This document shows positions 1,703 through 23,131 of a DNA stretch of 64,000 bases, piece after piece. Origin of the DNA: Plantibacter elymi (nom. nud.) (GTDB lineage: Bacteria; Actinomycetota; Actinomycetes; Actinomycetales; Microbacteriaceae); NCBI RefSeq assembly GCF_900177795.1, contig NZ_FXWJ01000003.1, positions 372,001 to 436,000 on the forward strand, given 5' to 3'. The translations under genes and the position numbers were made by a program. Numbering within the stretch: position 1 is the first letter of the stretch; each line of letters opens with the position of its first letter. Below the pieces are notes generated by a model. The model was not told the DNA's origin. It saw only the letters and a list, made by a program, of their open reading frames with translations, and did no database searches.

Positions 1703-2896
1703 TCAGGCGGAGGTGGGCTCGTACTGCCGACGGTCGCCGACGACGCCCGCGAAGCGGAACGGCGCGCTGGTCTCACGAGGGCGGTCGGAGTCGTGGACGT
1801 CGGCCGACGCCGCGTCCTCCAGGAGCTGCAGGTAGCGGGCGTCGTCGACGACCGTCCTGGCATCGAGCTGCGCACGGTTCGCGTCGCTCCGCAGAGCCGA
1901 GCGGTAACCCGGACGCACGATGCCGCTGAAGCACTCCGCGACCGCACCCGAGCCGTAGCTGAGGAACGCGATACGCCGACCGGTGAGGTCGTCGTCGCCG
2001 TCGAGCAGCGCGAGCAGCGCGAGGTACACGGAGGCCGTGTAGCTGTTCCCGATCCGGCGGTTGTACCCCGTCGTCGGCTCGATCTGTGCGTCCAACTCCT
2101 CCTGGGTACGCTCGGAGCCGAGCGACTTGGCCAGGTGCCGGTGCGCCTTGATCGCCATCTTCGTGAACGGCTGGTGGTAGCAGAAGTGGTCGACCTCGGA
2201 GAAGTCCGCCCCACCGCGTGACCGGTAGTCCGCCCAGGCACCCTCGATCGCGTCCTGGTAGGCGGAGATGGACAGCTTGCCGTCGACGATCGCCGTCGCA
2301 CTGTGGTTCGGGCGCCAGAAGTCCATGACGTCCTGCGTGTAGACGCCGGTCGCGGTCTCGAGCTCGAGGATCGCCGGATCGGCGGCCACGAGCATGGCGA
2401 CGGCCCCGGCACCCTGCGTCGGCTCCGCATTGGAGTGCAGTTCGTACCGCGCGACGTCGCTCGCGATGACGAGCACGGTCTCCTCGGGGTTCCGCGCCAC
2501 GAGCGCAGCCGCGAACTGCAGCGCCGCGGTGGCAGAGTAGCAGGCCTGCTTGAGCTCGACAACGCGGACCGCCTGCGGCAGACCGAGCAGGCGGTGCACG
2601 TAGACGCCCGCGGACTTCGACTGGTCGATCCCGGACTCGGTGGCGAACAGGACGGTCCGGAGCCGATCGCTGCCGTGCCGTTCGATGATGGGTGCGGCAG
2701 CGGCGGCGGCCATCGTCACGATGTCCTCGTCGGCGGCCGGGACGCTCATCTCGCTCTGGCCGAGACCGACGTAGTACTTGGCGGGTTCGACACCGAAGCG
2801 CCCGGCGAGCTCGGCGAGGTCGATGCGGTTCGCACCGGTCGCGAAAGCGATGTCGTCGATGCCGACGGCGGGGCTGGTGGTCTGGTTGGTGTTCAC
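1703..2896 (-). CDS. mvaS: Hydroxymethylglutaryl-CoA synthase
   Basis: This 397-residue protein matches the length of bacterial HMG-CoA synthases and condenses acetyl-CoA with acetoacetyl-CoA to HMG-CoA in the cytoplasm, the first committed step of the mevalonate pathway. The catalytic triad is visible: Glu87 in LFATESGID, the acyl-accepting Cys119 in ELKQACYSATAAL, and His241 in the CYHQPFTKM block. An SNAEPTQGAGAVAML stretch in the middle is also typical of the family. It is the last gene of a five-gene minus-strand operon and is separated from the HMG-CoA reductase gene by 59 bases. The ATG start is preceded by purine-rich sequence. Identification is firm. Confidence 0.95.
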   Translation of the reverse strand: MNTNQTTSPAVGIDDIAFATGANRIDLAELAGRFGVEPAKYYVGLGQSEMSVPAADEDIVTMAAAAAAPIIERHGSDRLRTVLFATESGIDQSKSAGVYVHRLLGLPQAVRVVELKQACYSATAALQFAAALVARNPEETVLVIASDVARYELHSNAEPTQGAGAVAMLVAADPAILELETATGVYTQDVMDFWRPNHSATAIVDGKLSISAYQDAIEGAWADYRSRGGADFSEVDHFCYHQPFTKMAIKAHRHLAKSLGSERTQEELDAQIEPTTGYNRRIGNSYTASVYLALLALLDGDDDLTGRRIAFLSYGSGAVAECFSGIVRPGYRSALRSDANRAQLDARTVVDDARYLQLLEDAASADVHDSDRPRETSAPFRFAGVVGDRRQYEPTSA

Positions 2897-2955
2897 GTGC
2901 GGGGTGCTCCGTTCGAGCGTCGACGATGCACCGGTCCCCCGGTGCGGTGGGAGGG

Positions 2956-4023
2956 TCAGGCGGGCGCGCCGGCTGCGGTCTGCGCGCTGCGTTCGAGCTT
3001 CAGATGGGCGGCCATGAGCTCACCGGGGTTGGTCTGCGCGGCGAGGAGTGACAGTTCGCCACACCAGACGGCGGCGGCGCACAGGACGGCGAGTCGCCGG
3101 GCGTTTGCGCCGGGTTCACGGTCCTCGCGGCACCCGAGGCGGGTGAGGTTCTCCTCGACGAAGCCGAGCCCCTTGCCGTTGCCGACCGTGCCGACGATGA
3201 GGTTCGGCAGGGTGCAGGAGAAGTAGAGGTCGCCGTCGTGGACCTCGGCATGGGTGACGCCCTGCGAGCCCTCGACGATGTTCGCCGCGTCCTGGCCGGT
3301 CGCCAGGTAGAACGCGAGCAGCATGTTGGCGTAGTGGGCGTTCGCGCTGCGCAGGCCACCGGCGAGGATCGTCCCGACGAGGTTCTTGCGCACGTTCAGC
3401 TGCACGATCTGCTCGGGCGTCGTGTGCAGGAACCGCTCGACGATCGCCCGCGGGATCGTCATCTCGGTGACGACGTTCTTGCCGCGACCCAGGATGCCGT
3501 TGACCGCGGTCGCCTTCTTGTCGGAGCAGAAGTTTCCGGAGATCGATCCGTACCGGAGCATCGGCCACCGCTCCATGATGTACGGCATGAGACGGTCCGC
3601 CGCGAGCGTGACCATGTTGTGGCCGGACGCGTCACCCGTGCGGAACTCGAGGCGCAGGAAGAGCAGGTTGCCGGCGATCTGCGAGTTGATCTGGATGAGT
3701 TCGGCGAAGTGACTCGACTGGGCGACGACGGCCTGCAGCTCGGGCAGGCTGCGCTCGATCTCGCGGAGCGCCTGCAGGGCGTCGCCGGCGGAGTCGACCT
3801 CGAACAGGACGGAGCGGCTCATCCGCTCGTCGACGAGCGTCGCGCGGATGCCGCCGGGGACCATGGAGGAGATGCGGGCGCCCCGGCGCACCGACGGCCA
3901 GAGCGGGCTCTCGTAGGTGGCGAGCGGGACCTCCTGCTCGCCCTCCATGACGTTGCCGCTCAGGTGGAGCGGGCCGATCCACTTGAGTGGGACCGGTGCG
4001 ACGCCGTCGGGTTCGTTGCTCAT
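2956..4023 (-). CDS. mvaA: HMG-CoA reductase, class I-like
   Basis: The 355-residue protein should reduce HMG-CoA to mevalonate. It carries the class I-type motifs RTGDASGHNM (cofactor side), SGNFCSDKKATAVN with the catalytic lysine (Lys169/170), and TGQDAANIVEG with Asp245. Glu38 in PLATYES and the C-terminal His340 in MAAHLKLERS complete the expected catalytic set. There is no membrane anchor, so it is a soluble bacterial/archaeal-style enzyme. The ATG at 4023 overlaps the stop of the phosphomevalonate kinase gene by four bases, which fixes the start and implies coupled translation. Cofactor preference (NADPH or NADH) cannot be judged with certainty, although the class I motifs favour NADPH. 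Confidence 0.95.
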   Translation of the reverse strand: MSNEPDGVAPVPLKWIGPLHLSGNVMEGEQEVPLATYESPLWPSVRRGARISSMVPGGIRATLVDERMSRSVLFEVDSAGDALQALREIERSLPELQAVVAQSSHFAELIQINSQIAGNLLFLRLEFRTGDASGHNMVTLAADRLMPYIMERWPMLRYGSISGNFCSDKKATAVNGILGRGKNVVTEMTIPRAIVERFLHTTPEQIVQLNVRKNLVGTILAGGLRSANAHYANMLLAFYLATGQDAANIVEGSQGVTHAEVHDGDLYFSCTLPNLIVGTVGNGKGLGFVEENLTRLGCREDREPGANARRLAVLCAAAVWCGELSLLAAQTNPGELMAAHLKLERSAQTAAGAPA

Positions 4024-5237
4024 GCGTGGGGTTCCGTTCCGCCTCGGAGGACGTCGTGCTGCTCGGCGAAGGCACGAGCGTAGGTGGATCTGATGGATTC
4101 GACCGCGTCGTCGTCGGTCCGGCTGATCTCCGACGGCCCCCACGGGCTGTGGGCGGCGTCGATGAGTCCGGTCGGTGGGTGCACCGTGAGCGGGAGCCGC
4201 TCGATGCCGTGCGCCGACCAGTCGTCTTCGAGGGCGGCGGTGGAGACGGACTGGCCGATGAACGCGATCCCGCAGTCGCCACCACCGGCACCGGACGACT
4301 TGGCCGCCCCGCCGAGGCGTTCGGCGGCGTCGCAGAGCTGCGCGAGCGCGGCGGTCTCGATGTCGACACCGGCGTCGCGGCCGAGACCGGCGAGCGTCGC
4401 GCGCGCGGAGCGGACGGCACCGAGCACGAGGGCCGGGTCCTCGTCGTTCAAGCCGATCGTGAGCGCGTCGACGGCGGCGCGGCTGGCCGCGAGGAAGGAG
4501 GTGTAGTGGGCCGTCTCCGCCCACTTGCGGGACTGCAGTTCATCGACGAGACGCGTGGTCGAGGCGGGCTCGCCGGTCCAGCCGACGAGGAGCCGGAGCG
4601 AGGTCGGCGGCGACAGGCGCTCGAGCCCCAGCTCGGCCCAGGGGTCGCGGAGGGCTGCGAGCACCCCTTCGCGGTGGCGCACCTCCCGCAGCCGTGCCCG
4701 ATCGGGCGAGGTGTAGCGGAGCCAGCCGCCGAACATGCTCGCCGCGAGGTCGCCTCCGGACGCTGCCGGTGCGACGTCGATGGTGGCGAGGATCGCGAGC
4801 TTGAGCATCTGCGTCCGGGTGAGGTCGAGCTGGTAGAACTCGTCGAGGGCGCGGATGGTGGCGGTCGTCACGGCCGCACTCGAGCCGAGGCCGAACTTCC
4901 GGCCACTCGCGTCGTCGAGCTCGCTCGTGATGGACAGGGCGGAGAACCGCTGCGCGACGCCGAGCTCGGCGACGAGGGTCTCCATCGTGCTCACGGCGGA
5001 GAGGACGTGGTCGAGCGGGCGTTCCTCGTGCTCGACGACGACCCCGTTGCGGTTGCGACGCCAGATGATGGGCGCTCGGCCGTACTGGTCGGAGAAGATG
5101 CGGCCCTCGTGCTCGCTCGCCTCGAGTCGGACGGTGACGCACCGGTCGACCGCGACGAGGATGGAGGGGTGCCCTGGTTCGACGACGGCGTACTCGCCGG
5201 CCACGAAGAGCTTGCCGGGCGCCTTGATCTCGATCAT
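4020..5237 (-). CDS. mvaK2: Phosphomevalonate kinase
   Basis: The protein (405 residues) is a GHMP-family kinase expected to convert 5-phosphomevalonate to 5-diphosphomevalonate with ATP. The N-terminal APGKLFVAGEYAVVEPGHP is the hallmark start of bacterial phosphomevalonate kinases. The ATP-binding GHMP loop appears as KFGLGSSAAVTTATI, and the C-terminal GHMP motif as AKSSGAGGGDCGIAF. The ATG start overlaps the end of mvaD by four bases, and its own stop overlaps the start of mvaA by four bases. Actinobacterial mevalonate clusters known from the literature often place the isopentenyl-diphosphate isomerase gene next to this one; here none is present. Confidence 0.93.
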   Translation of the reverse strand: MIEIKAPGKLFVAGEYAVVEPGHPSILVAVDRCVTVRLEASEHEGRIFSDQYGRAPIIWRRNRNGVVVEHEERPLDHVLSAVSTMETLVAELGVAQRFSALSITSELDDASGRKFGLGSSAAVTTATIRALDEFYQLDLTRTQMLKLAILATIDVAPAASGGDLAASMFGGWLRYTSPDRARLREVRHREGVLAALRDPWAELGLERLSPPTSLRLLVGWTGEPASTTRLVDELQSRKWAETAHYTSFLAASRAAVDALTIGLNDEDPALVLGAVRSARATLAGLGRDAGVDIETAALAQLCDAAERLGGAAKSSGAGGGDCGIAFIGQSVSTAALEDDWSAHGIERLPLTVHPPTGLIDAAHSPWGPSEISRTDDDAVESIRSTYARAFAEQHDVLRGGTEPHA

Positions 5238-6292
5238 CGCGCTCCTTCCGTTGTCTGCTCGCCCGCCGATCCGCCGGGCTCCGAGGTGATGAGCCTCGCG
5301 CCCCGTCCGGCTCTGGCGGGGATGACGCCGATGTCGGGCTGCGCCTCGAGGATCCGAGTCGCGAGCTCGTCGACCGCGTCGGCTCGACACAGGATCTTCA
5401 CGTTCGGGCCGGCGTCCATCGTCGCATAGCATTCGAGGCCGTCGCCTCTGAGGTTTGCGACGAGATCGAGCAGTTCCACGCTCGCCGGTCCCCAGTACCG
5501 GACCGGCGGCTCGGCGCCGAGCATCGTGGCGTGCATCCGCATCGCGTTCCGCTCGGCGATCGTGCCCACCGCGGTGAAGTCGGCGCGGGTGATCGCGGCG
5601 AGCATCTCCTCGAGTTCGACGGGGGTGCGTTCGACCCAGGCGGGGTAGTACGGGGAGGTGTCGACCGTGCGCCGCATGCCGTCGCGACTGGAGACCGACT
5701 TGGCCCGGGCGTCGAGGACGGTGAGGACCATACCGAGCTCGAGTCCGGGCGCGGGCACCGCCTCGGCGAAGGAGCTCTCGTCGTCGTGCCCGGCGTGCCA
5801 GACGGCGATCCCGTCGAAGATCGAACGCGAGGCCGACCCGGAACCACGGCGGGCCAGCCGGGAGAGGGCACGCCGATCGAGGTCGAGTCCGAACGCGGTC
5901 GACGCGGCGAGCGCCAGTGCGGCGAAGCCCGAGGCGGAGGAGGCGAGGCCGGCCCCCGTGGGGATCTCGTTGTGGGAGTCGACGGTGACGCGCTCGTCTC
6001 GGCCGGCGAGCGCACGCACGAGGTCGATGAAGCGCGTGACGCGGGAGCGGGCGGTGCCCTCGAGGGGTCGTCCACCGAGGAGCACGACGTCGTCGGGTGC
6101 GTCCGTCAGTCGCACCGTCGTCGTCGTGGGCGCTGCGTCGAGGGTCAGTGAGAGGCTTCCGGTCCACGGGAGGATGAGCGCCTCGTCCCGCTTGCCCCAG
6201 TACTTGACGAGGGCGATGTTGGGGTTGGCCAGAGCAGTCGCACTGCCCTCCTCCGAGGCGGTCGTCGCGGGCTGTTGCGGGGTCAGGGTCAC
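5234..6292 (-). CDS. mvaD: Diphosphomevalonate decarboxylase
   Basis: This 352-residue GHMP-family enzyme should phosphorylate and decarboxylate diphosphomevalonate to isopentenyl diphosphate. The signature ANPNIALVKYWGKRDE near the N terminus and the substrate/ATP loop TGAGLASSASGFAALALA are diagnostic, and the SGSASRSIFDG block is conserved in decarboxylases. A longer upstream reading frame exists, but the GTG at 6292 is preferred because it overlaps the mevalonate kinase stop by four bases, the same coupling used by the next two junctions, and because the protein then begins at a family-typical distance from the signature. The C-terminal VIPARAGRGARL stretch also fits the family. Confidence 0.94.
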   Translation of the reverse strand: MTLTPQQPATTASEEGSATALANPNIALVKYWGKRDEALILPWTGSLSLTLDAAPTTTTVRLTDAPDDVVLLGGRPLEGTARSRVTRFIDLVRALAGRDERVTVDSHNEIPTGAGLASSASGFAALALAASTAFGLDLDRRALSRLARRGSGSASRSIFDGIAVWHAGHDDESSFAEAVPAPGLELGMVLTVLDARAKSVSSRDGMRRTVDTSPYYPAWVERTPVELEEMLAAITRADFTAVGTIAERNAMRMHATMLGAEPPVRYWGPASVELLDLVANLRGDGLECYATMDAGPNVKILCRADAVDELATRILEAQPDIGVIPARAGRGARLITSEPGGSAGEQTTEGAR

Positions 6293-7227
6293 GCGTAGTC
6301 CTCCGCGTCGATCGTCCAGGTGCCGAGTGCTCCGGCCTCGAGCAGGGCTTGCGAGATGCGTCGGGCTGACGCGGGGTCTGCGGCGAGGGTGATGATGCAT
6401 CCGCCCTGCCCGCCGCCCGTGAGCTTCGCGCCGAGGGCGCCGTTCGCCTCGGCGACCGCGATGAGCGCGGTGATGGCCGGGTGGCCGGCGCCGAGTTCGT
6501 CGAGGACGACCTGTGCCGCGTTCATGCGGGTCCCGAGGTCGTCGCGGCGGTCCGCAGCGAGGTCGGCGACGCCCGCCACCGTCCCGCGTTCGAGCTCGGC
6601 CAGGAGCGCGCGACCACGCTCGGGGTGCAGCTCGACGAAGGCGCGGACGTCGGCGACCGCCTTCCGGGTCGACCCGCGCGCACCGGTGTCGGCCACGACG
6701 AAGCTGCCGCCGAAGCGGATCGGCGGATGCTCGACCCGGCCGGCGGTGAAGAGGATGGGTGTCGAGGCGCTCGTGGCCCGGGCGTCGAGACCGCTGGGCG
6801 TCCCGTGGGCGACGCGTTCGCCGCGCTGCACGAGCTCGAACCGGTCGGCGTCGTCGAGCGCCACGCCGTGCAGGTCGGCGACGGCGTCGACGATCGCGTT
6901 GGCGGCCGCGGCACTCGATCCGAGGCCTCTGCCGATCGGGAGCGTCCCGCGGACGACGACCTCGACGCCGGCCGGAGCCGCACCGACGTGCGCGAGGGTC
7001 TCGAGGACGGTGGTCCCGAGCGGATCGGAGGCGTCGAGCGGGCCGAGTGAGATCTCGGTGTCGAGGACCGAGGCCCCGCCGATGGGTCGGGCGGTCGCCT
7101 CGACCCGGAGCGACGGGATGGGCAGGGCGACGGCTGGAGACCCGTAGACGACGGCGTGCTCGCCCAGCAGGATCGCTTTGGCGTGCGCGAAGCCGCGACC
7201 GGTCGCAGCCGTATGCTCTGTCGTCAT
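6289..7227 (-). CDS. mvaK1: Mevalonate kinase
   Basis: The 312-residue protein is the first gene of the mevalonate operon and should phosphorylate mevalonate to 5-phosphomevalonate. Visible motifs are AHAKAILLGEHAVVYGSPA at the N terminus, the ATP loop PIGRGLGSSAAAANAI, the catalytic-Asp region PSGLDARAT, and the C-terminal GHMP motif KLTGGGQGGCII. An ATG 177 bases further upstream is in frame, but the extra residues do not look like protein of this family, so the ATG at 7227 is chosen. The operon diverges from the gltB-like gene across a 389-base gap that must hold its promoter. Confidence 0.93.
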   Translation of the reverse strand: MTTEHTAATGRGFAHAKAILLGEHAVVYGSPAVALPIPSLRVEATARPIGGASVLDTEISLGPLDASDPLGTTVLETLAHVGAAPAGVEVVVRGTLPIGRGLGSSAAAANAIVDAVADLHGVALDDADRFELVQRGERVAHGTPSGLDARATSASTPILFTAGRVEHPPIRFGGSFVVADTGARGSTRKAVADVRAFVELHPERGRALLAELERGTVAGVADLAADRRDDLGTRMNAAQVVLDELGAGHPAITALIAVAEANGALGAKLTGGGQGGCIITLAADPASARRISQALLEAGALGTWTIDAEDYA

Positions 7228-7616
7228 CTCACCATTCTGGTCCGAAAAACATGCAGCTGGCTGCACATCGGTCGTCCGGTCGCGATCCGATCCACCACGG
7301 GCAGGCTCGTGAGCCGTCCCGCAGCACATCCGGGCGCTGCACGATGGGCCGTCGACGGGAGCCGCCGGAGCGCTCACGGCGTGTCCCATGCGTACCGGAA
7401 ACACCCAGCCTACGCCGAACGGCCCGGTTCGGCTCGTTACGGTTGAGTGGGCGGGACGGCCCGGTTAGGATCGGAACACCTCCATTCATGCAGACGACGG
7501 CCGCCGCACCCAGCGCCCGCGTCGACACGGACCCACCCTCCAGCGACGTAGATCCGGTCCCGTCATCTCACCGTCTCCGGGCCGTCCAGCGCCCGCATTC
7601 CGAGGGGTACCCCGTC
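7228..7616. other. Divergent intergenic region between mvaK1 and gltB-like gene
   Basis: This 389-base stretch separates two divergent operons and should contain promoters for both. An in-frame ATG for the plus-strand gene exists at 7488 but lacks a ribosome-binding site, and the residues it would add are of low complexity. A small perfect palindrome (gcagctggctgc, near 7252-7263) lies about 25 bases upstream of mvaK1 and could be part of an operator. I see no other gene, RNA gene or repeat, and no promoter that I can assign with confidence. Confidence 0.5.
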
Positions 7617-10600
7617 GTGATCTCGTCTTCCGTTCCACCGCGCCCGCGCACCGCCGCACCATCGCCCCTGCCCGACCTCGTCGATCGCCAGACCGACAAG
7701 AGCGACTGCGGCGTCGGCTTCATCACCCGCAAGGACGGCGTGCAGAGCCACGACGTCATCGCACTCGGCGACACCGCCCTGTGCGCCATCCCCCACCGCG
7801 GGGGTATGTCCTCCGAGGGCGTCGGCGACGGAGCGGGCGTGCAGATCGACCTCTCGGTCGACTTCTTCAGCTCCCTCGTCGGCAAGCCGCTCGTCGCCGG
7901 GCGGTTCGGCGTCGCGAACGTCTTCCTCCCGGTCGACCACGGTCGGATCGGCGACGCCGAGGCGCTCATCGAACGTTCGCTCGGCGAGGCCGGCTTCACG
8001 GTGCTGCTCGCCCGTGCCGTGCCGACGGTCGAGGCCGTCCTGCGCCCGAAGGCCGTGCAGTACCAGCTGCCGATCCGGCAGTGGATCTTCGAGCCGTCGG
8101 ACGACGCCTCCACAGAGGACCTCGACAGGCGCGCGCACGCGGCCCTGCTCGCGATCGAGGCGACCGCGTACACGGACCTCACTCTCGACGGCCTGTACCC
8201 GCTGTCACTCAGCACGCGCACCCAGGTCCTCAAGGGACGTCTCAACTCCGGCGAGGTCATCCCCTACTTCGCCGACCTGGCCGACCCCCTGCACCGGGTC
8301 AGGACCCTCGCCTTCCACACCCGGTTCTCGACGAACACCGCGCCCCACCCGTCGATGGCGCAGCCCTTCCGCCTCATGGCGCACAACGGCGAGCTCAACA
8401 CCGACCGTAAGAACCGCCTGTCCGAGACGGCGCTGGCGGCGTCGCGAGGCCGGAAGATCATCCGGGCCAGGGGCCAGTCGGACAGCTCGCGCCTCGACCA
8501 GACGCTGCACAGCCGCGTGGTCGAGGACGGACTCGAACTGCTCGAGGCGGTCGTGTCGGTCATGCCCCCGGCCTGGGAGAACGATCGCACCCTGAGCCGT
8601 GAGGTGCGCGCGATGCTCGAGTACTTCTCGCTCGTCGAGGAGAAGAACGACGGTCCAGCCGCGCTCATCTTCAACGACGGCACGACCGTCGGCGCCCGGC
8701 TCGACCGGCTCGGCCTGCGTCCGCTGCGCAGCGTCGAGACGGCCGACTACCTCTGCGTCACCTCCGAGGCCGGGCAGCTGCCGTTCCCCGACGACGAGGT
8801 GGTCCACCGCGGTCGCATCGAGGCCGGCGGCATGCTCGCCTACGACCACCGCACGGGCACGCGCCTCCGCACGGGCGAGGCGCTCGAGCTCCTCGCGGCG
8901 CGCAAGGACTACCCGGCGATGCTCGCCGCATCGGCCACCGACCTCGACGCGCTCGAGGACCGGGGCGTCCCGGTGTCGGCACCGACGGCCTCGCCGGACG
9001 ACGCCTTCGCCTACCGCGGTGGGCTGAGCCAGGTGCAGCGCTACGTCGCCTACTCCCTCAACCAGGAGAGCTTCCGGTTCATGACGGACCCGATGCTCGC
9101 CTCGGGCAAGGAGCGGATCTCGGCGATGGGCTACGGCAACGCCATCAACGCCCTGTCCGACCAGGAGGGCGGCCTGGCGAAGTACTTCTCCCAGCGCTTC
9201 GCCCAGGTGACCAACCCGCCGCTCGACAGCATCCGTGAGGCTGACGGCATGACCCTCCGGGTCGCACTCGGCCCGAAGCCCGGCAGCGGCACGGTCGGCA
9301 CGAAGCAGCTCGTCCTCCGGTCCCCCATCATCAGCGAGGACGAACTCCGACGCCTCAGCGCTCAGCACGAGTCGCCGGTCGCGTGGTTCGACATCCTCTA
9401 CCGGCCCGAGGTGGACGCGCAGGCGAACGCCGACGCACTCGAGGCCGCCGTCGAGCGCGTGGCAGCGGAGGTCGCCGGGTTCGCCGCCGAGAACGGCGGC
9501 ATCGCGATCCTCAGCGACCGCGGCGTCCACGCGGAGGGTGCCGCCCTGCCGCTCATCCTCGTCGTGGCGGCCGTCAACCAGCGACTCATCGACGACGGCC
9601 TCCGGCTCCGCGTGTCGCTCGTGGTTGACAGCGGCCAGCTGCCGTCCTCGCACCACGTCGCCTCCGCCCTCGGCTTCGGTGCGTCGGCCGTCCACCCGCT
9701 CGCGGTCCGTCTGCGTGCCGAGCAGCAGCACCCCGACGAGGTGGAAGCAGCGTTCCGCCGGTTCGCCTACGCCGCCGAGAAGTCGCTCCTGAAGACCATG
9801 GGCCGGGTCGGCCTCTGCACCGTCGAGAGCTACATCGGCGGCGAGTTCTTCGAGCCGAACTACCTCGACACGAGCGACCCCGTGCTCGCGCGCGCCTTCC
9901 CGCACCTCCGCGCCCCCGTCGGCGGCGTCGGGTTCGCCGGGATCGCCCGGACGGCGAGCGCCTGGCACCAGCGCGCCCTGACGACGTCGAGCGACGCGGA
10001 CGTCCCGCTCCTCGGCCTGTTCAAGGAACGCGCCGAGGGCGCCGGCCACTCCTACGGGACGACCGCGGTCCGCGGCTTCGTCGACCTCACCGAGGAGCCC
10101 GTGCAGCTGCCGCGAGCGGACACGACGGCCGTCGATCGCGACGGGGGCACGCTCGGCGACGACCCGCTGCGCCTCCACACCATCGGGAACCTCGAGGACG
10201 CGTTCGGGATCGACGACGACGCCTACCAGCACACCTCCTTCGACGCCCTCGACGACGACGAGATCGACGCCTTCACCATCACGCCCGGCTACCGCTCCTT
10301 CGTGCAGTCGATGACGACCGAGCGGCGCCGTCGCCCGGCAGCCCTCCGCGACGTGCTCGTGCTGCCCGAGGACATCACCCGGCTGACCACCCCGGAGGAG
10401 TTCGCACGGGAGCTCGACCGGCTCGGCCCCGTCGGCAACTCCTCGATCGTCGTCCGCGGCCTGCGTGCGACGCGGACCGAGCAGGGACGGCACCGGCTGC
10501 AGCTCACGGGACCGCTCGCGGGCGACCTCACCCGGGTCTCGGCGCTCGGCGAGTACTACGTCCACCGCTTCGGCGGCGAGGTGACGGGGCACTGGATCTC

Positions 10601-13199
10601 CGGGGGCGACCTCATCGTGGAGGCGACAGGCTCGGCCGACGACTACTTCTCGATGCTCGTCGAGGGTGCCGAGAGCATCTCGACCGACCTCGTCCAGCCG
10701 GCGAGCGAGATCACCCGATCCCTCGCGTCCGGGGCGATGAGCCACGGTGCCCTCGTGGCGACCGCGCACGAGGCGGTCGCGCACGGCACCAACATGGTCG
10801 GCGGGATGTCGAACAGCGGTGAGGGTGGCGAACACCTGTCCCGCTACGGCACGATCCGCGGCTCGCGCATCAAGCAGTTCGCCTCGGGCCGCTTCGGCGT
10901 CTGGGCCGGCTACCTCGCCGACCCGATGCTGCAGGAGCTCGAGATCAAGATCGGCCAGGGCGCCAAGCCCGGCGAGGGCGGTCAGCTCCCGGCTCCCAAG
11001 GTGACGGTGGACATCGCCGCCGCCCGGGGCGGCACGCCCGGCATCGAGCTCGTCTCGCCGCCGCCGCACCACGACACCTACTCGATCGAGGACCTCGCGC
11101 AGCTCATCCACGATTGCAAGGCGGCACGGGTCCGCGTCGTCGTCAAGCTCGTCTCCTCCGAGGGCATCGGCACGATCGCCGTCGGCGTCGCCAAGGCCGG
11201 TGCCGACGTCATCAACGTGGCCGGCAACACCGGTGGGACCGGCGCAGCCGCCGTGACGAGCCTCAAGTACGCCGGACGCAGCGCCGAGATCGGCATCGCC
11301 GAGGTCCACCAGGCCCTCAGCGCGAACGGTCTGCGGTCGAAGGTCACGCTGCGCTGCTCCGGCGCGCATCAGACCGGTCGCGACGTCGTCATCTCCGCCC
11401 TGCTCGGCGGCGACAGCTTCGAGTTCGGGACCACCGCGCTCATGATGCTCAAGTGCGTCATGGCGAAGAACTGCAACGTGAAGTGCCCGGCTGGTCTCAC
11501 GACCAACCCGGAGACCTTCGACGGCGACCCGCGCGCGCTCGCGCAGTACCTCCTGAACATCGCGCACGACGTCCGCGAGCGGCTCGCCATCCTCGGCCTC
11601 CGCTCGCTTCGCGAAGCCCGCGGTCGCACCGACCTCCTCCACCTCGTCGACCACCCGGCGGCCGTCGCAGACCTCGACCTGCGGGCCATGCTCGCGGTCG
11701 TCCCCGAGGTCGTCGTCACCGACCCCGTGTACCTGGAGAAGGACTTCACGCTCGACGACGCCCTCATCGAGCGTGTGCGCGCCGGCCTGTTCGACGACGG
11801 CCGGACGACGCTCGACCTGGGCGCCGAGGACACCGACGGCGGGATCCGCCTCGGCAACCGCTGGCGTTCCGTGGGCGGGCAGCTCGCGATCGACCTCGAG
11901 CGCATCCTCAACCACGAGCTCGACGACGCCCAGGCGGCGGCGATCCCCTCCGTCGTCACCGACGACCGCGGCCACCGTTCGCTCGCCGCCGACACTGTGA
12001 CCATCCGCACCGAACACTCCGCGGGGCAGTCGTACGCGGCGTTCTGCGTCGACGGCCTGCACTGGCGGCACACCGGCACCTGCAACGACGGCGTCGGCAA
12101 GAGCGCCTCCGGTGGCACCATCGCGATCCTCTCCCCCGGCGGCGGCAGCTCGGAGGACGGCGGGAACGTCCTCATCGGCAACTTCGCCCTCTTCGGCGCG
12201 ACCGGCGGCCGCACCTTCGTCCAGGGCGAGGCCGGCGACCGCTTCGCCGTCCGCAACTCGGGCGCCACCGCGGTCGTCGAGGGCGTCGGCGACTACGCCT
12301 GCGAATACATGACCAACGGCGCCGTGCTGAACCTCGGCGGTTTCGGGATCGGCTTCGGCAACGGGATGAGCGGTGGCTTCGTCTACCAGTACGACCCGCG
12401 GGGCGAACTGCCGAGCAAGGTCAGCGCGGACTCCCTCCTCCTCGGATCGATCACCGAGGGCGAGCAGGCGGCGTTCCACGAGGCCGCCGTGCTCCTGCTG
12501 CTGGAGTGGCACGTCGAGGCGACCGGTTCGCCGCTCGCCTCCCGCTTGCTCGCCGAGTGGGAAACGGCCAGGCACCAGTTCGTGTTCGGCATGCCGCGCG
12601 CGCTGCTCCTCTACCAGGACAGCGACGCGATCCTCGCGGCCAAGAGCCGCAAGGAACTCCTCGACGAACTCGGCGCGGCCCTCGCGGCGCAGCAGCTCCG
12701 CACCTTCAAGCTCGACTACCGCGACCGCCGACCGGTCCGCGGCGGTCGCGCCCCCGGACTCGGCGAGCCCGCGGCGGACCCGCAGGACGTCTACGCGCTC
12801 CTCACGAGCTACACGGTGCTGAAGCTCGCCCAGGAGGTCGCGCTCTCCCGCACGCCCGGCGTCGACGACCCGTCGCACCCGCTCGTGCAGGCGAGCGTCC
12901 GCACGCTCATCCTCACCGAGGACTTCTTCGTCATGCAGCGGGTGCAGCGGGCGGCTCGAGAGCTGCTCGAACGGTACGACGACGGGGCGCTGGCCGCCAT
13001 GATCGCCGCGAAGCGCCTCCACGACTACACCGAGGCACTGCGGCTGCGGAACGTGCGGTCGATCGACCACCCGGGCACCACGGGGTGGATCATGCACCAA
13101 CACGCCAAGAACCGTGCCCGATCCGCAGCGACCGGCGGCACCGAAGCACTCCTTGCATCGGCCGCTCTGGCCGAGCTGACCCTGGCGGGTTCCCGATGA
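7617..13199 (+). CDS. gltB: Divergent long glutamate synthase (GOGAT) large subunit
   Basis: The protein transfers the glutamine amide to 2-oxoglutarate. Counting from the GTG at 7617 (purine-rich gaggg about ten bases upstream), it has 1860 residues, against about 1500 for ordinary GltB. The class II glutaminase nucleophile is Cys31 in KSDCGVGFI, exposed by removal of a short propeptide, and HTRFSTNTAPHPS and HNGELNTDR belong to the same domain. The FMN-binding synthase domain covers about residues 1025-1330 (GAKPGEGGQLPAPKV, ELVSPPPHHDTYSIEDL, GNTGGTGAA). A GXGXG domain lies at about 1490-1595, followed by an unusual C-terminal extension of about 265 residues. The iron-sulfur cysteines 1280, 1286 and 1290 are spaced C-x5-C-x3-C rather than C-x5-C-x4-C. 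Its stop overlaps a diflavin reductase gene, and no gltD is present. Confidence 0.85.
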   Translation: MISSSVPPRPRTAAPSPLPDLVDRQTDKSDCGVGFITRKDGVQSHDVIALGDTALCAIPHRGGMSSEGVGDGAGVQIDLSVDFFSSLVGKPLVAGRFGVANVFLPVDHGRIGDAEALIERSLGEAGFTVLLARAVPTVEAVLRPKAVQYQLPIRQWIFEPSDDASTEDLDRRAHAALLAIEATAYTDLTLDGLYPLSLSTRTQVLKGRLNSGEVIPYFADLADPLHRVRTLAFHTRFSTNTAPHPSMAQPFRLMAHNGELNTDRKNRLSETALAASRGRKIIRARGQSDSSRLDQTLHSRVVEDGLELLEAVVSVMPPAWENDRTLSREVRAMLEYFSLVEEKNDGPAALIFNDGTTVGARLDRLGLRPLRSVETADYLCVTSEAGQLPFPDDEVVHRGRIEAGGMLAYDHRTGTRLRTGEALELLAARKDYPAMLAASATDLDALEDRGVPVSAPTASPDDAFAYRGGLSQVQRYVAYSLNQESFRFMTDPMLASGKERISAMGYGNAINALSDQEGGLAKYFSQRFAQVTNPPLDSIREADGMTLRVALGPKPGSGTVGTKQLVLRSPIISEDELRRLSAQHESPVAWFDILYRPEVDAQANADALEAAVERVAAEVAGFAAENGGIAILSDRGVHAEGAALPLILVVAAVNQRLIDDGLRLRVSLVVDSGQLPSSHHVASALGFGASAVHPLAVRLRAEQQHPDEVEAAFRRFAYAAEKSLLKTMGRVGLCTVESYIGGEFFEPNYLDTSDPVLARAFPHLRAPVGGVGFAGIARTASAWHQRALTTSSDADVPLLGLFKERAEGAGHSYGTTAVRGFVDLTEEPVQLPRADTTAVDRDGGTLGDDPLRLHTIGNLEDAFGIDDDAYQHTSFDALDDDEIDAFTITPGYRSFVQSMTTERRRRPAALRDVLVLPEDITRLTTPEEFARELDRLGPVGNSSIVVRGLRATRTEQGRHRLQLTGPLAGDLTRVSALGEYYVHRFGGEVTGHWISGGDLIVEATGSADDYFSMLVEGAESISTDLVQPASEITRSLASGAMSHGALVATAHEAVAHGTNMVGGMSNSGEGGEHLSRYGTIRGSRIKQFASGRFGVWAGYLADPMLQELEIKIGQGAKPGEGGQLPAPKVTVDIAAARGGTPGIELVSPPPHHDTYSIEDLAQLIHDCKAARVRVVVKLVSSEGIGTIAVGVAKAGADVINVAGNTGGTGAAAVTSLKYAGRSAEIGIAEVHQALSANGLRSKVTLRCSGAHQTGRDVVISALLGGDSFEFGTTALMMLKCVMAKNCNVKCPAGLTTNPETFDGDPRALAQYLLNIAHDVRERLAILGLRSLREARGRTDLLHLVDHPAAVADLDLRAMLAVVPEVVVTDPVYLEKDFTLDDALIERVRAGLFDDGRTTLDLGAEDTDGGIRLGNRWRSVGGQLAIDLERILNHELDDAQAAAIPSVVTDDRGHRSLAADTVTIRTEHSAGQSYAAFCVDGLHWRHTGTCNDGVGKSASGGTIAILSPGGGSSEDGGNVLIGNFALFGATGGRTFVQGEAGDRFAVRNSGATAVVEGVGDYACEYMTNGAVLNLGGFGIGFGNGMSGGFVYQYDPRGELPSKVSADSLLLGSITEGEQAAFHEAAVLLLLEWHVEATGSPLASRLLAEWETARHQFVFGMPRALLLYQDSDAILAAKSRKELLDELGAALAAQQLRTFKLDYRDRRPVRGGRAPGLGEPAADPQDVYALLTSYTVLKLAQEVALSRTPGVDDPSHPLVQASVRTLILTEDFFVMQRVQRAARELLERYDDGALAAMIAAKRLHDYTEALRLRNVRSIDHPGTTGWIMHQHAKNRARSAATGGTEALLASAALAELTLAGSR

Positions 13200-15055
13200 A
13201 CGCGCCCGAACTGGAGGGGACGATGACCTCGACCCAGGCCCCGGCGGCCAGCACACCGAGCCCGGTGCTCTTCGAGGCGCTCGCCGCGCTCGGCAGCAGC
13301 GCCGACGACCCGTTCATCCCGGCGGACGCGCCCTTCAGCCCCGAGCAGCGGGTCTGGCTCGCGGGATTCCTGGCAGGGGTCCGCTCCAGCGCGATCGATG
13401 CCACCGACGCCGGTGGCCGCACGCCGCAGCTCGCCCTGCACGTGCTCGTCGGGACGCAGACGGGCACCGCGGAGGCCATCGCTGAGGACCTCGGCCGAGC
13501 CGCCTCCGGCTACGGTGTGGCGGTGACGACGGTCGGACTCGACGACGTCGAGGTCGACCGGCTCCCGTCGATGGGACACGTCGTCGTCATCACCTCCACC
13601 TACGGCGAGGGTGAGATGCCCGACAACGCCGAACTGTTCTGGGAGACGCTCCAGGCGAGCACTGCGCCACGCCTCGACGGCCTGAGGTTCTCCGTGCTCG
13701 CGCTCGGCGACTCCGGATACGACGGGTTCTGCCAGGCGGGCAAGCTCATCGACACGCGCTTGGAGCAGCTCGGTGCGGAACGGATCCTCGCCCGCGTGGA
13801 CTGCGACGTCGATTACGAGGAGCCCGCCGCGGCGTGGACCACGCAGGCCCTGTCGCTCTTCGGCGCCCTCGCCCCGACGGACGCCGATGCCGCATCCGCT
13901 CCCGCGCCGGCCGCCAAACCGGCGAAGAAGCCCGGCCGCACGCGTTCACCGTGGACCCGCAAGACGCCGTACGGCGCGACCCTCGCCGTCAACCGCGTCC
14001 TGTCCGGGCCAGCCTCGTCGAAGGAGATCCGGCACTACGAGTTCGACCTGGCCGACAGCGGCATCGAGTACGCGGCCGGCGACGCCCTCGGCGTCATGCC
14101 GAGCAACGACCCGGCGCTCGTCGACGCCATCATCGCCGAACTGGACGCGACCGCGGACGAGTCGGTCGACGGCTCGACCCTGGCGGACCGGCTCACCCAC
14201 GGGTTCGAGATCCGCACCCCGTCGAAGGACCTCGTGGCCGAGCTCGCCGACCGCGCGCCGGACTCGGAGCTGGCGGGGATCCTCGCGCTCGCCCAGGCGG
14301 AGACGCTCGACTCCTGGTTGCGCGACCGGGACATCCTCGACCTCCTGCGCTCCACCGCGGTCCGGTTCGACGCCGCCGCGCTCCTCGACGTGCTGCGTCC
14401 GCTCCAGCACCGCGCCTACTCGATCTCGTCCAGTCCGCTGGCGGCCGACGGGCGCGTACACCTCACCGTCGCGAGCGTCCGGTATGCGGTCGGCGACCGT
14501 CTGCACGGCGGCGTCGCGTCGACGCATCTCGCCGACCGGGTCACGGAGGGTGCCACGAGCGGGATCTTCGTCTCCGCCAACGCGGGCTTCCGCGTGCCGT
14601 CGGACGACGACGCGCCACTCATCATGGTCGGCCCGGGAACCGGGATCGCGCCGTTCCGCTCGTTCCTGCAGGAGCGCCGCGAGCGCGGGGCCACGGGTCG
14701 GAACTGGCTGTTCTTCGGCGACCAGCACCGGGCGCACGACTTCATCTACGAGGACGAGCTCGGCGAGCTGCTCACCGGAGGGGTGCTGGACCGTCTGGAC
14801 CTCGCGTTCTCCCGCGACCAGCGCGAGAAGGTGTACGTCCAGACGCGGATGCGCGAGAACGGCAAGGAGCTCTACGCCTGGCTCGAGGAGGGCGGCCACT
14901 TCGCCGTCTGCGGTGACGCCTCACGGATGGCGAAGGACGTCGACCAGGCGTTGCACGAGCTCATCGCCGAGCACGGTGGGCGTTCGACGGAGGCCGCAGC
15001 CGAATACGTGCACACGCTGAAGCGCGAGAAGCGCTACATCCGCGACGTGTACTGA
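13196..15055 (+). CDS. CysJ-type NADPH diflavin reductase, translationally coupled to gltB
   Basis: This 619-residue protein has the layout of the sulfite reductase flavoprotein. An N-terminal FSPEQRVWLAGFLAG stretch is followed by a flavodoxin domain (about 81-225, FMN loop GTQTGTAEA, TSTYGEGEMPDN, ALGDSGYDGFCQAGK). A basic, Ala/Pro-rich linker leads to an FAD domain with RAYSISSSP at about 406, then an NADPH domain with MVGPGTGIAPFRSFL and the terminal KRYIRDVY typical of CysJ. It would carry electrons from NADPH through FAD and FMN to a partner. The usual partner CysI is absent from the window. Instead its ATG lies inside the stop of the long gltB gene (ATGA overlap), so by inference it feeds the GOGAT in place of GltD. 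Confidence 0.85.
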   Translation: MNAPELEGTMTSTQAPAASTPSPVLFEALAALGSSADDPFIPADAPFSPEQRVWLAGFLAGVRSSAIDATDAGGRTPQLALHVLVGTQTGTAEAIAEDLGRAASGYGVAVTTVGLDDVEVDRLPSMGHVVVITSTYGEGEMPDNAELFWETLQASTAPRLDGLRFSVLALGDSGYDGFCQAGKLIDTRLEQLGAERILARVDCDVDYEEPAAAWTTQALSLFGALAPTDADAASAPAPAAKPAKKPGRTRSPWTRKTPYGATLAVNRVLSGPASSKEIRHYEFDLADSGIEYAAGDALGVMPSNDPALVDAIIAELDATADESVDGSTLADRLTHGFEIRTPSKDLVAELADRAPDSELAGILALAQAETLDSWLRDRDILDLLRSTAVRFDAAALLDVLRPLQHRAYSISSSPLAADGRVHLTVASVRYAVGDRLHGGVASTHLADRVTEGATSGIFVSANAGFRVPSDDDAPLIMVGPGTGIAPFRSFLQERRERGATGRNWLFFGDQHRAHDFIYEDELGELLTGGVLDRLDLAFSRDQREKVYVQTRMRENGKELYAWLEEGGHFAVCGDASRMAKDVDQALHELIAEHGGRSTEAAAEYVHTLKREKRYIRDVY

Positions 15056-15068
15056 GGCGCTCCTCGAC

Positions 15069-15181
15069 CGGTCCCTGAGCAGGGCCCTTCGACAGGCTCA
15101 GGGACCGGTCATCGACCACCGGTCCCTGAGCACCCCACGCGGTCCCTGTGCACCCCACACGGTCCCTGAGCTTGTCGAAGG
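15069..15181. repeat. Palindromic GGTCCCTGAGC/GTCGAAGGG repeats between convergent genes
   Basis: The gap between the reductase and purK contains ggtccctgagc paired with gctcagggacc (about 15069-15107), which can fold into a hairpin. Next come three direct copies of ggtccctg(a/t)g starting at 15121, 15141 and 15161, an exact 20-base period. The last continues into cttgtcgaagggc. The same word builds the arrays around the HNH pseudogene near 21 and 23 kb, so this is a dispersed repeat family. Placed tail to tail between genes it may also end transcription from both sides. Confidence 0.75.
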
Positions 15182-20988: not shown

Positions 20989-21355
20989 CCGACAGGCTCA
21001 GCGACCGGGAGAAGTCCACTCGGACGCGTTCCGGTCCCTGAGCTTGTCGAAGGGCCCACGAGGAAGTTCCCGCTTCGAGGAAGTTCCCGCTTCGATGACC
21101 CTCTCCGGCCCTCCGAGTGACCCCCTCCGGTCCCTGAGCAACCCCATCCAGCCTCTGAGCCTGTCGAGCGCACACGAGGAACCTCTCGCCCTGGTGACCC
21201 TCCTCCGGTCCCTGAGCCTGTCGAAGGGCCCACGGAGAACCCCGCCAATCCGGCATGCCTTCCCCGGTCCCTGAGCCTGTCGAAGGGCCCACGGAGAACC
21301 CCGCCAATCCGGCATGCCTCCTCCGGTCCCTGAGCCTGTCGAAGGGCCCACGAGC
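20989..21355. repeat. Upstream array of palindromic repeats, mostly forward
   Basis: Six copies of the word ggtccctgagc(c/t)tgtcga, or clear variants, read on the plus strand (near 21033, 21129, 21152, 21207, 21266 and 21325), and one reversed copy sits at 20989. The last three units are spaced exactly 59 bases apart and share an accompanying aaccccgccaatccggcat stretch, so part of the block is a true tandem repeat. The conserved unit extends into gggcccacgagg. The same extended unit, inverted, forms the array downstream of the HNH pseudogene. A short stretch of unremarkable sequence (21356-21417) then leads into the pseudogene. Confidence 0.8.
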
Positions 21356-21417
21356 AACTTCCACACTCGGCTCGACTCAGCATCTGGAATGTCAGTGGTC
21401 CGTGGTGGACTGGTTCC

Positions 21418-22689
21418 ATGACCGAGACCACCTCCGCCGCGATCCGCGTGGGCGACGAGTGCGCCGCGCGCCTCGCGGAGTTCTCGGACCACTACGCGGA
21501 CATCCAGCGTCGGCGTGCTGCTCTGGACGCCGAGGAGGCTCGGCTGCTCGCCCGGTCTGCCGCCTACGCGGACGCCTTCGCCGACGCCACGGTTCCGGCG
21601 ATCTTCCCGCCCGCGGAACGGCAGGCGCTCTCCCGCCGGTCGACCTGTACGGCGCTCGCGATGGCGACCCGCACGCCCGAGCGGACCGTGCAGCGGGCGA
21701 CGAACGACGCCGAGCGCCTCGTGAATGATGCTCCGGCCGTGCTCGAGTCGCTCGAGGCCGGTCGCATCTCGGCCCGGCACGCGCAAACGATCATCGACCA
21801 ACTCAGTGACGTGCCGACCGCAGGGCGGGCGGGGTTCCTCGCGGAGGTCCTGCCCGTCGCGGAAGAGTCCACCAACGCAATCCTTCGCAGGCGCGCCCGC
21901 GTCCTGCGCGAGCGACTCCACCCCGAGTCCATCACCGCACGCGCGGTCCGCTCCGAGGCCGACCGCCGGGTCGAGTTCAAACCGGCCGCCGACGGCATGG
22001 CGTGAGTGCACCTGTTCACCACCGCACCGATCGCGCAGGGCATCATCGAGCGCGTCGAAGCAGCAGACGCCGAATCGCGCCAGGCCGGCGACACCCGTAC
22101 CTGCGCGCAGCTGCAGGCCGACGCCCTCGCTGCCCTCGCGCTCACCGGCGTCACGCCCGACGACGTCATGTCCAGCCCAGTCCTGCCGCACCCGATCGAG
22201 GTCCAGGAGCACATCACGCCGACCGTGCAGATCACCGTGCCAGCGCTCAGCATGGCCGGCGTCTCCGACGCGCCCGGCATGCTCGACGGCTACGGCCCGA
22301 TCGACCCGCAGACCGCAGCCCGCATCGCGGTGAACGCCCCCAGCTTCACCCGGATCCTCGTCCAGCCGGAAACCGGCGCAGTGCTCTCCGTCGGACGGGG
22401 CCAGTACCGCGTTCCGGCCGACCTCCAGCGCGCGGTCCGGCTTCGGGACGGCACTTGTCGCGCACCAGGGTGCGGGCGACGAGCCAGGGCCTGCGACCTC
22501 GATCATTCGGTCGCCTGGGAGGACGGCGGCACGACAGATGTCGGCAACCTCGCGTGTCTCTGCCGACATCACCACCGGATGAAGCACCTCCCCGGGTGGA
22601 ACCTCGACCACGGACCCGGCGGGGTCCTCGAGTGGACGACACCCGACGGGAAGCAGTATCGGACCGAGCCGGATCCAGCAGCGTTTTGA
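21418..22689 (+). pseudogene. HNH endonuclease (DUF222/13E12-type), interrupted by in-frame TGA
   Basis: An N-terminal frame of 195 residues has the long helical DUF222 character. It ends at a TGA (22003-22005) just after RRVEFKPAADGMA, and the same frame resumes with VHLFTTAPIAQGI. Intact relatives normally read MAW at this point, so a single TGG-to-TGA change is the simplest explanation. The second part (from 22006) carries the nuclease motif: CRAPGC, DLDHSVAWEDGGTT, NLACLCRHHHRMKH. A GTG directly after the stop could allow separate translation of the nuclease half. The 13E12 family is repetitive and poorly understood in Actinobacteria. The gene is framed by inverted repeat arrays. Confidence 0.85.
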
Positions 22690-22720
22690 CCTGCCTCGGT
22701 GTCCTCAGATCGAAGGGTTC

Positions 22721-23131
22721 CTCGTGGGCACTTCGACAGGCTCAGTGACCGGGAGAAGTGCACCCGGAACGATGAGGCGACCTCGTGGGCACTTCGACAG
22801 GCTCAGTGACCGGGAGCAGTGCGCCCGAACCGTTTCGGTCCCTGAGCCTGTCGAAGGGCAGCTGGGTCGTGACACCTCAGTGGCCGGAGGAGGTTCACCG
22901 GGAATGCCTCGGCCCCTGAGCCTGTCGAAGGGTTGCTCGTGGGCACTTCGACAGGCTCAGTGAACGGAAGAGGTTCGCCCGGAACGATGAGGCGACCTCG
23001 TGGGCACTTCGACAGGCTCAGGGACCGGAGGAGGTGTGCCCGGAACGATGAGGCATCCTCGTGGGCACTTCGACGGGCTCAGCGACCGGGAGAAGCGCGC
23101 GCGGATGCGTCCCGGTCCCTGCGCCTGTCGA
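22721..23131. repeat. Downstream array of palindromic repeats, mostly inverted
   Basis: Five units read cctcgtgggcacttcgacag (near 22721, 22782, 22936, 22997 and 23058), the reverse complement of the unit in the upstream array. Spacing is exactly 61 bases for 22721-22782, 22936-22997 and 22997-23058. Forward-oriented copies of the ggtccctgagcctgtcga word interrupt the series near 22837, 22911 and 23113. The shared spacer word ggaacgatgaggc shows tandem duplication. No gene is seen in the 467-base gap between the pseudogene and the kinase-like gene. Confidence 0.8.

Follow-up and report, generated by a model that had tools for sequence, protein, structure and literature searches.

A long GltB-like protein paired with a CysJ-type diflavin reductase in Plantibacter elymi and its relatives: a candidate iron-sparing glutamate synthase

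A stretch of 64,000 nucleotides from Plantibacter elymi (nom. nud.; assembly GCF_900177795.1, contig NZ_FXWJ01000003.1, positions 372,001 to 436,000 of the forward strand; hereafter, the window) carries two overlapping genes on the plus strand that may together encode an alternative form of glutamate synthase (glutamine oxoglutarate aminotransferase, GOGAT). The first gene, at 7617-13199, starts with GTG (an alternative in-frame ATG at 7488 is possible) and encodes a 1860-residue protein resembling GltB, the large subunit of the NADPH-dependent enzyme. All four GOGAT domains were recognized in it by Pfam, namely the class-II glutamine amidotransferase domain with the catalytic Cys31 (GATase_2, PF00310; residues 31-432, 7707-8912), the central domain (Glu_syn_central, PF04898; residues 475-746, 9039-9854), the synthase domain for flavin mononucleotide (FMN) (Glu_synthase, PF01645; residues 1019-1328, 10671-11600) and the GXGXG beta-helix domain (PF01493; residues 1435-1616, 11919-12464). 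The second gene, at 13196-15055, shares an ATGA overlap with the first and encodes a 619-residue CysJ-type NADPH diflavin reductase ending in KRYIRDVY, with all three domains of such enzymes: Flavodoxin_1 for FMN (13442-13831), FAD_binding_1 for flavin adenine dinucleotide (FAD; 13949-14524) and NAD_binding_1 for NADPH (14624-14944). The reading frames and Pfam matches confirm the pair as given in the original prediction, an earlier reading of the same stretch, which had also stated, correctly, that neither gltD nor a gene for a sulfite reductase haemoprotein lies within the window.

The original prediction placed the long GltB about 350 residues above the usual length, which is about right against the 1486 residues of Escherichia coli GltB (taken from its coordinates), and gave the C-terminal extension as about 265 residues, which had to be corrected. 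The tail comprises about 175-195 residues (from 1665-1686 to 1860; 12609-13196), the likeness to the solved GOGATs stopping near residue 1664 and the columns occupied only in this family beginning at 1686, and another 140 or so family-only columns lie within residues 822-1014, 95 of them in an insertion ahead of the FMN domain (residues 918-1014, 10368-10658) whose columns are mostly absent from 15 canonical GltB proteins. The extension, a possible docking part in the original prediction, is predicted to be all-helical when modelled alone, with a predicted local distance difference test (pLDDT) score of 84.9, and a fold search of it against the PDB gave no match below an E-value of 0.59. The model of residues 720-1860 (mean pLDDT 57.1, predicted template modelling score 0.40) was too poor for its domain arrangement to be used; in it, about residues 950-1017 form a small unit of alpha/beta type, with pLDDT means of 75-90 per block.

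The catalytic machinery of the large subunit is retained. In an alignment of 76 long forms, comprising the window protein and the full-length GltB of 75 of the 80 related loci described below (L037, L089 and L103 being left out at contig ends, L038 for frameshifts and L030 most likely by the start filter), the catalytic cysteine, the four glutamine-ligand positions, the residues of the 2-oxoglutarate and FMN sites and the three cluster cysteines are invariant. The roles of the glutamine-ligand and 2-oxoglutarate-site residues are assumed, with the numbering transferred through alignment to the 1llw structure; on this assumption the Glu, Lys, Lys, Gln, Arg and His of the 2-oxoglutarate site are identical in 76/76, as is Met504, taken as the counterpart of Met479 of A. 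brasilense. Judged by sequence features, the four domains and the intact sites for glutaminase and synthase activity are those of the NADPH-GOGAT large subunit. The cysteines of the cluster are spaced differently, the motif CVMAKNCNVKC (residues 1280-1290, 11454-11486) reading CX5CX3C in 79 of the 80 loci (the remaining one being most likely the contig-edge fragment L089) versus CX5CX4C for the [3Fe-4S] cluster of canonical GltB, and an Asp of the FMN region found in 15/15 canonical proteins is Ser in all 76 long forms. The second insertion and the altered cysteine motif, like the third gene of the relatives and the iron box presented below, had no place in the original prediction.

The long forms are set well apart from ordinary GltB. 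The window protein is about 30-44% identical to canonical GltB and scores 975.8 against the GltB equivalog model NF008730, below its cut-off of 1047, whereas the canonical GltB of the same genome scores 1628.1. Among the long forms themselves, 73 of 75 share about 63-69% identity with the window protein and two share 99%. In a tree of the FMN domain, all 26 long forms fall on one side of a branch (support 96/86), apart from the 15 canonical GltB including that of E. coli, with only 14 of the 41 inner branches of this tree being well supported; both this tree and the one for the reductase contain, besides the window and two divergent pairs, 23 of the 80 loci.

The partner of the long GltB is, by its domains and signature residues, an NADPH diflavin reductase with FMN, FAD and NADPH sites, the signatures examined being kept in 79-81 of 81 sequences (those for FAD and NADPH in 80-81); an expected N-terminal motif matched in only 36/80 and was dropped. 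It is 41% identical to E. coli CysJ and scores 600.5 against the CysJ equivalog TIGR01931, below the cut-off of 668.15, while passing the looser model NF004859 for "sulfite reductase subunit alpha" (480 vs 432), and no second full-length homologue of it was found in the window's genome. In the reductase tree, 24 of the 26 reductases linked to a long GltB form one supported group (98/97). A sample of 396 genomes of the phylum gave, beyond the linked reductases and one second reductase beside one of them, 22 further matches, of which 18 sit at the end of long reading frames, three are stand-alone reductases and one (L135) is unclear. A molybdopterin domain was present in all five of these 18 frames that were given to Pfam, and the two tested by NCBIfam are NasC-like; this reductase type occurs there fused to nitrate reductases. 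As a separate observation, the divergent long-GltB/reductase pair of L128 and L153 (genome G532) has a HemS/ChuX-like gene after it, beyond which lies a second FAD/NADPH reductase frame (394 residues), this one without a flavodoxin part.

The linkage of the two genes was followed in several samples, as the original prediction had proposed, and it held in every complete case. Among 199 family genomes, 12 carry the C-terminal extension, all of them with the reductase directly downstream and an RTGA stop/start overlap; approached from the side of the reductase, the same genomes gave 12 matches of at least 56% identity, all linked to a long GltB, and two at 36-41% that are unlinked and in genomes without the extension. 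A scan for the extension over 84,980 species genomes yielded 118 relatives, and in the best 80 of them the reductase follows the long GltB in 80/80 loci, with a gene overlap in most. These loci belong to Streptomyces, Curtobacterium, Rhodococcus, Mycobacterium and its relatives, Nocardia, Leucobacter, Tessaracoccus, Corynebacterium and others, and also to the betaproteobacterium Lampropedia; three are from Plantibacter, with a tail 96-99% identical to that of the window. In the phylum sample the extension occurs in four genomes: the three complete cases each have the reductase, and the fourth is a 31-residue fragment close to the start of a contig. The long form is encoded at 62-67% identity in nine plasmid records (Sinorhizobium, Shinella, Neorhizobium, Ketogulonicigenium and Tsukamurella), the reductase adjoining it on 9/9 by coordinates, with the annotation read for five. 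Since the genes are adjacent in 80/80 related loci, the pairing is not due to chance, and since the linkage held in every complete case, across two phyla, the CysJ-like reductase belongs with the long GltB; the coupling of the two is very likely real. In Arenivirga flava (L038), the frames of both genes are broken, by decay or sequencing error. In deposited records the long form is called "glutamate synthase-related protein" or "gltB", and its partner "sulfite reductase subunit alpha" or "cysJ"; a full-text search of the open-licence part of PubMed Central gave no recognised description of the pair.

The gene content of the genomes bears on what the pair replaces and what the reductase serves. 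In the window's genome, a canonical gltB and gltD lie on contig C7 in the order trpB, trpA, lgt, gltB, gltD, pyk (the four flanking genes being named by eye). The claim that the reductase acts in this cell instead of GltD therefore fails, by an observation that the original prediction itself had named as telling against it. The only match to the NIR_SIR domain in this genome is NirB on C7 and no CysI was detected by the domain search, which leaves the reductase without a sulfite reductase to serve there. Other GltB, GltD and NIR_SIR were then considered in 49 of the 80 operon-bearing genomes. No NIR_SIR domain was found in 12 of the 49 at E-values up to 1e-6, and on this genome content the idea that the reductase generally serves a sulfite or nitrite reductase was rejected. 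GltD is present in 46 of the 49; the remaining three, Mycetocola reblochoni, Leucobacter weissii and Streptomyces sp. GQFP, have neither GltD nor another full-length GltB, the Streptomyces having in addition a 440-residue frame with an FMN domain. In the first two genomes, trpB, trpA, lgt and pyk stand as one uninterrupted block, and no match to gltBD was better than E 1; in the third, a clean excision of gltBD could not be shown, one pyk being found versus two in the two relatives tested. Because these three related genomes lack other full-length gltB and gltD, the proposed design stands despite the gltBD of this cell. The original prediction is, taken as a whole, partly supported.

The surroundings of the pair point to iron. 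A third gene, first spotted by eye in G532 and in plasmid annotation, encodes a HemS/ChuX-like protein (clear in three proteins; weak, with an E-value of 0.028, in Ketogulonicigenium itself), and by profile search it lies directly 3' of the pair in 40 of 88 loci, 26 by the offset rule and 14 with negative offsets in which the tblastn hits nevertheless begin past the end of the reductase. The Ketogulonicigenium plasmid is annotated with this third gene 3' of the reductase and then siderophore genes. Clustering of the neighbours beyond the pair gave lineage-specific groups and missed the HemS/ChuX-like gene through a crude caller of open reading frames. In Rhodococcus jostii (L031, 12422-12871), a flavodoxin gene lies 3' of the reductase, another iron-sparing theme.

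The HemS/ChuX-like gene and the siderophore neighbours prompted a scan for DtxR/IdeR iron boxes, in which all scores refer to an assumed 19-mer consensus. Among 81 operon promoters, 27 score at least 14/19 and 13 more reach 13/19, giving 40 in the range 13-16/19; block shuffling gives expectations of 0.07 and 0.54 for at least 14/19 and at least 13/19, respectively. Of 2000 random windows of 400 bases drawn from these loci, a number of which overlap the promoters, 33 reach at least 13 and 20 at least 14, or about 1.3 and 0.8 per 81. The 80 loci, 1,580,273 bases in total, contain 30 sites of at least 14/19, and 27 of these are in the operon promoters, taken as the 400 bases before the catalytic Cys codon, where 0.06 would be expected. 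The 27 strong boxes come from 26 loci, of which half are from Streptomyces; nine named genera and two unclassified genomes are represented, loci of one genus not being independent, and Tsukamurella is a tenth named genus with a box of at least 14/19. The promoters of canonical gltB reach 14/19 in 0 of 14. A scan of 864 kb from the window's genome gave four places of at least 14/19: three, at C6:227632 (L181 7632), C7:342342 (L205 2342) and C7:389337 (L207 9337), precede two Peripla_BP_2 genes and one gene for a siderophore-interacting protein, and the fourth an OsmC-like gene; with three of the four ahead of siderophore-type genes, the consensus is meaningful in this genome. Boxes for the nitrogen regulator GlnR, sought with an assumed pattern, were found in 2/75 promoters versus 0.74 expected, lending no support to GlnR control.

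Elsewhere in the window, the repeat TTCGACA(A/G)GCTCAGG occurs on both strands at 15088-15179 and 21037-23022 in nine copies with at most one mismatch (0.01 expected), the first two just 3' of the reductase gene. On the minus strand, at 1703-7404, there is a mevalonate-pathway-like cluster, with genes named by eye as those of HMG-CoA synthase, HMG-CoA reductase and enzymes of kinase/decarboxylase type, and the Curtobacterium locus L051 has a similar synthase-like frame near the operon.

From these sequences we infer that the products of the two genes would form a single enzyme, an NADPH-dependent glutamate synthase of an alternative kind. In it, the long GltB would hydrolyse glutamine, channel the ammonia to 2-oxoglutarate and reduce the imine on FMN, as ordinary GltB does, while electrons would pass from NADPH through the FAD and FMN of the reductase, one at a time, to the three-iron cluster or the FMN of GltB. 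The reductase would take the place of GltD with its FAD and two [4Fe-4S] clusters, and the helical C-terminal domain and the insertion ahead of the FMN domain probably adapt GltB to it. As GltBD contains a [3Fe-4S] cluster and, in GltD, two [4Fe-4S] clusters, with 11 iron atoms in total (PMC8097209), the replacement of the two [4Fe-4S] by flavin would save 8 of the 11 cluster irons per protomer (3 vs 11), leaving the three-iron cluster at most, together with flavins. The operon would probably be switched on at iron shortage, in many lineages, through the DtxR/IdeR box, and an iron-sparing isozyme of GltBD, comparable to flavodoxin replacing ferredoxin, is the simplest reading of an operon that is probably derepressed at low iron and needs 8 fewer iron atoms per protomer. 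The identity of the reaction as that of GOGAT is considered likely. A single diflavin-driven, iron-responsive and iron-sparing NADPH-GOGAT is the reading favoured here, with some reserve, and iron sparing likewise appears, on balance, to be the best explanation of the regulation. The widest form of the proposal, a new class of GOGAT in which a diflavin reductase stands for GltD, serving as an iron-starvation isozyme with about one quarter of the cluster iron, spread horizontally over Actinomycetota and Pseudomonadota (including plasmids) and sometimes displacing GltBD altogether, has about an even chance of being right.

A number of points weigh against the iron-sparing GOGAT, which is proposed here from sequence and with an assumed box consensus. 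The enzyme would not be iron-free, as the long GltB keeps its own cluster cysteines. The box scores below 13/19 in 41 of the 81 operon promoters, including those of Plantibacter, Curtobacterium and Lampropedia, and 13/19 is reached by three of the 14 canonical gltB promoters. The window's own candidate, TTAGGATCGGAACACCTCC (7465-7483, plus strand), is a weak match of 12/19, and with scores of at least 12/19 arising about 0.03 times per 400 nt in the 864 kb of this genome, the single box is only suggestive. Two of the genomes without gltBD, those of Mycetocola and Leucobacter, show no iron box (10/19), and the window has no HemS-like gene, nor did 48 of the 88 loci yield one. All three gltBD-less genomes encode dehydrogenases of PF00208, the glutamate dehydrogenase family (with E-values of about 1e-81 or better in two of them and of 4e-38 in the Streptomyces), and may for this reason not need a GOGAT. 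On the side of the reductase, two divergent linked proteins fall outside the main linked branch of the tree, and the stand-alone reductases L129, L130 and L133 (551-600 residues, 49-53% identity) are not beside a long GltB. In the known iron-sparing responses, IsrR was found to be without significant effect on the stability of gltB2 mRNA (PMC9410917).

Several of these points would suit a diflavin-driven GOGAT that does not spare iron, the pair being an isozyme for NADPH supply, oxidative stress or some other condition and the box a sign of membership in a broad DtxR regulon. The promoters below 13/19 and the retained cluster cysteines fit it, whereas the boxes of at least 14/19 in ten named genera, the HemS/ChuX-like and siderophore neighbours and the iron arithmetic agree with one another in the opposite direction, so that this explanation is regarded as unlikely. 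It is doubtful, too, that the pair is a glutamine-dependent reductive amidase acting, still with electrons from the diflavin reductase, on a 2-oxo acid other than 2-oxoglutarate. The identity of the assumed 2-oxoglutarate-site residues in all 76 long forms speaks against another substrate, and the three operon-bearing genomes without gltBD fit the same reaction; in its favour there are the deep split from canonical GltB in identity and in the tree, the Ser in place of the FMN-region Asp, and the gltD of 46/49 genomes, by which the pair is usually not the sole GOGAT. That the reductase mainly serves another acceptor (the HemS/ChuX-like haem protein, a flavodoxin, or a sulfite or nitrite reductase), with GltB as an unrelated neighbour, is very improbable, the adjoining HemS/ChuX-like gene of 40/88 loci, the flavodoxin of R. 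jostii and the closeness of the reductase to CysJ models being outweighed by the reductases of at least 56% identity, which in both the family and the plasmid samples always adjoin a long GltB, with genes overlapping in most loci, by the loci in which no HemS-like gene was found and by the 12/49 genomes without NIR_SIR.

Should the iron-sparing, diflavin-driven GOGAT prove true, central nitrogen assimilation would gain another electron-input design, and iron-sparing responses would be seen not only to act against the iron-rich GOGAT, but also to swap it for an iron-poor one. The "sulfite reductase subunit alpha" genes of genomes in which no sulfite reductase is found would likewise be accounted for. 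The position of the pair behind an apparent iron-starvation switch in many species suggests nitrogen assimilation that continues while iron is saved.

Among known systems, the glutamate synthases covered in the consulted sections of a review comprise the NADPH-dependent two-subunit, ferredoxin-dependent, fused NADH-dependent, Synechocystis NADH-dependent and archaeal piecewise forms, none of which is described there as fed by a diflavin reductase (PMC8097209). With GltBD, the present pair shares the four-domain large subunit, the catalytic cysteine, the glutamine and 2-oxoglutarate sites and the three cluster cysteines; it differs in the diflavin reductase that occupies the place of GltD as the next gene of the operon, in CX5CX3C, in the two added segments, in the GltB score below the cut-off and in the separate branch. 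The ferredoxin-dependent GOGAT likewise works without GltD, on electrons from a separate carrier, but the donor here would be the operon partner, and the stretch of about 20 residues after SGEGGE in the 1llw chain, which we take to be the ferredoxin loop, has no counterpart in the long GltB by alignment. To CysJ, the reductase is similar in the flavodoxin-FAD-NADPH layout, the signatures and the overall identity, and dissimilar in falling below the CysJ cut-off, in being paired with GltB and in belonging to a genome without CysI. By analogy, the NADPH-dependent diflavin enzyme NasN of Mycobacterium smegmatis, described as responsible for nitrate assimilation (PMC11001197), offers a precedent for a reductase of this type passing NADPH electrons to a nitrogen-assimilation enzyme, with the module fused to a molybdopterin enzyme there and a separate chain paired with GltB here. 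The report on IsrR also counts glutamate synthase among the targets, putative or demonstrated, of the iron-sparing RNAs IsrR and RyhB (PMC9410917); these RNAs act on the iron-rich GOGAT, whereas here an iron-poor substitute for it is proposed.

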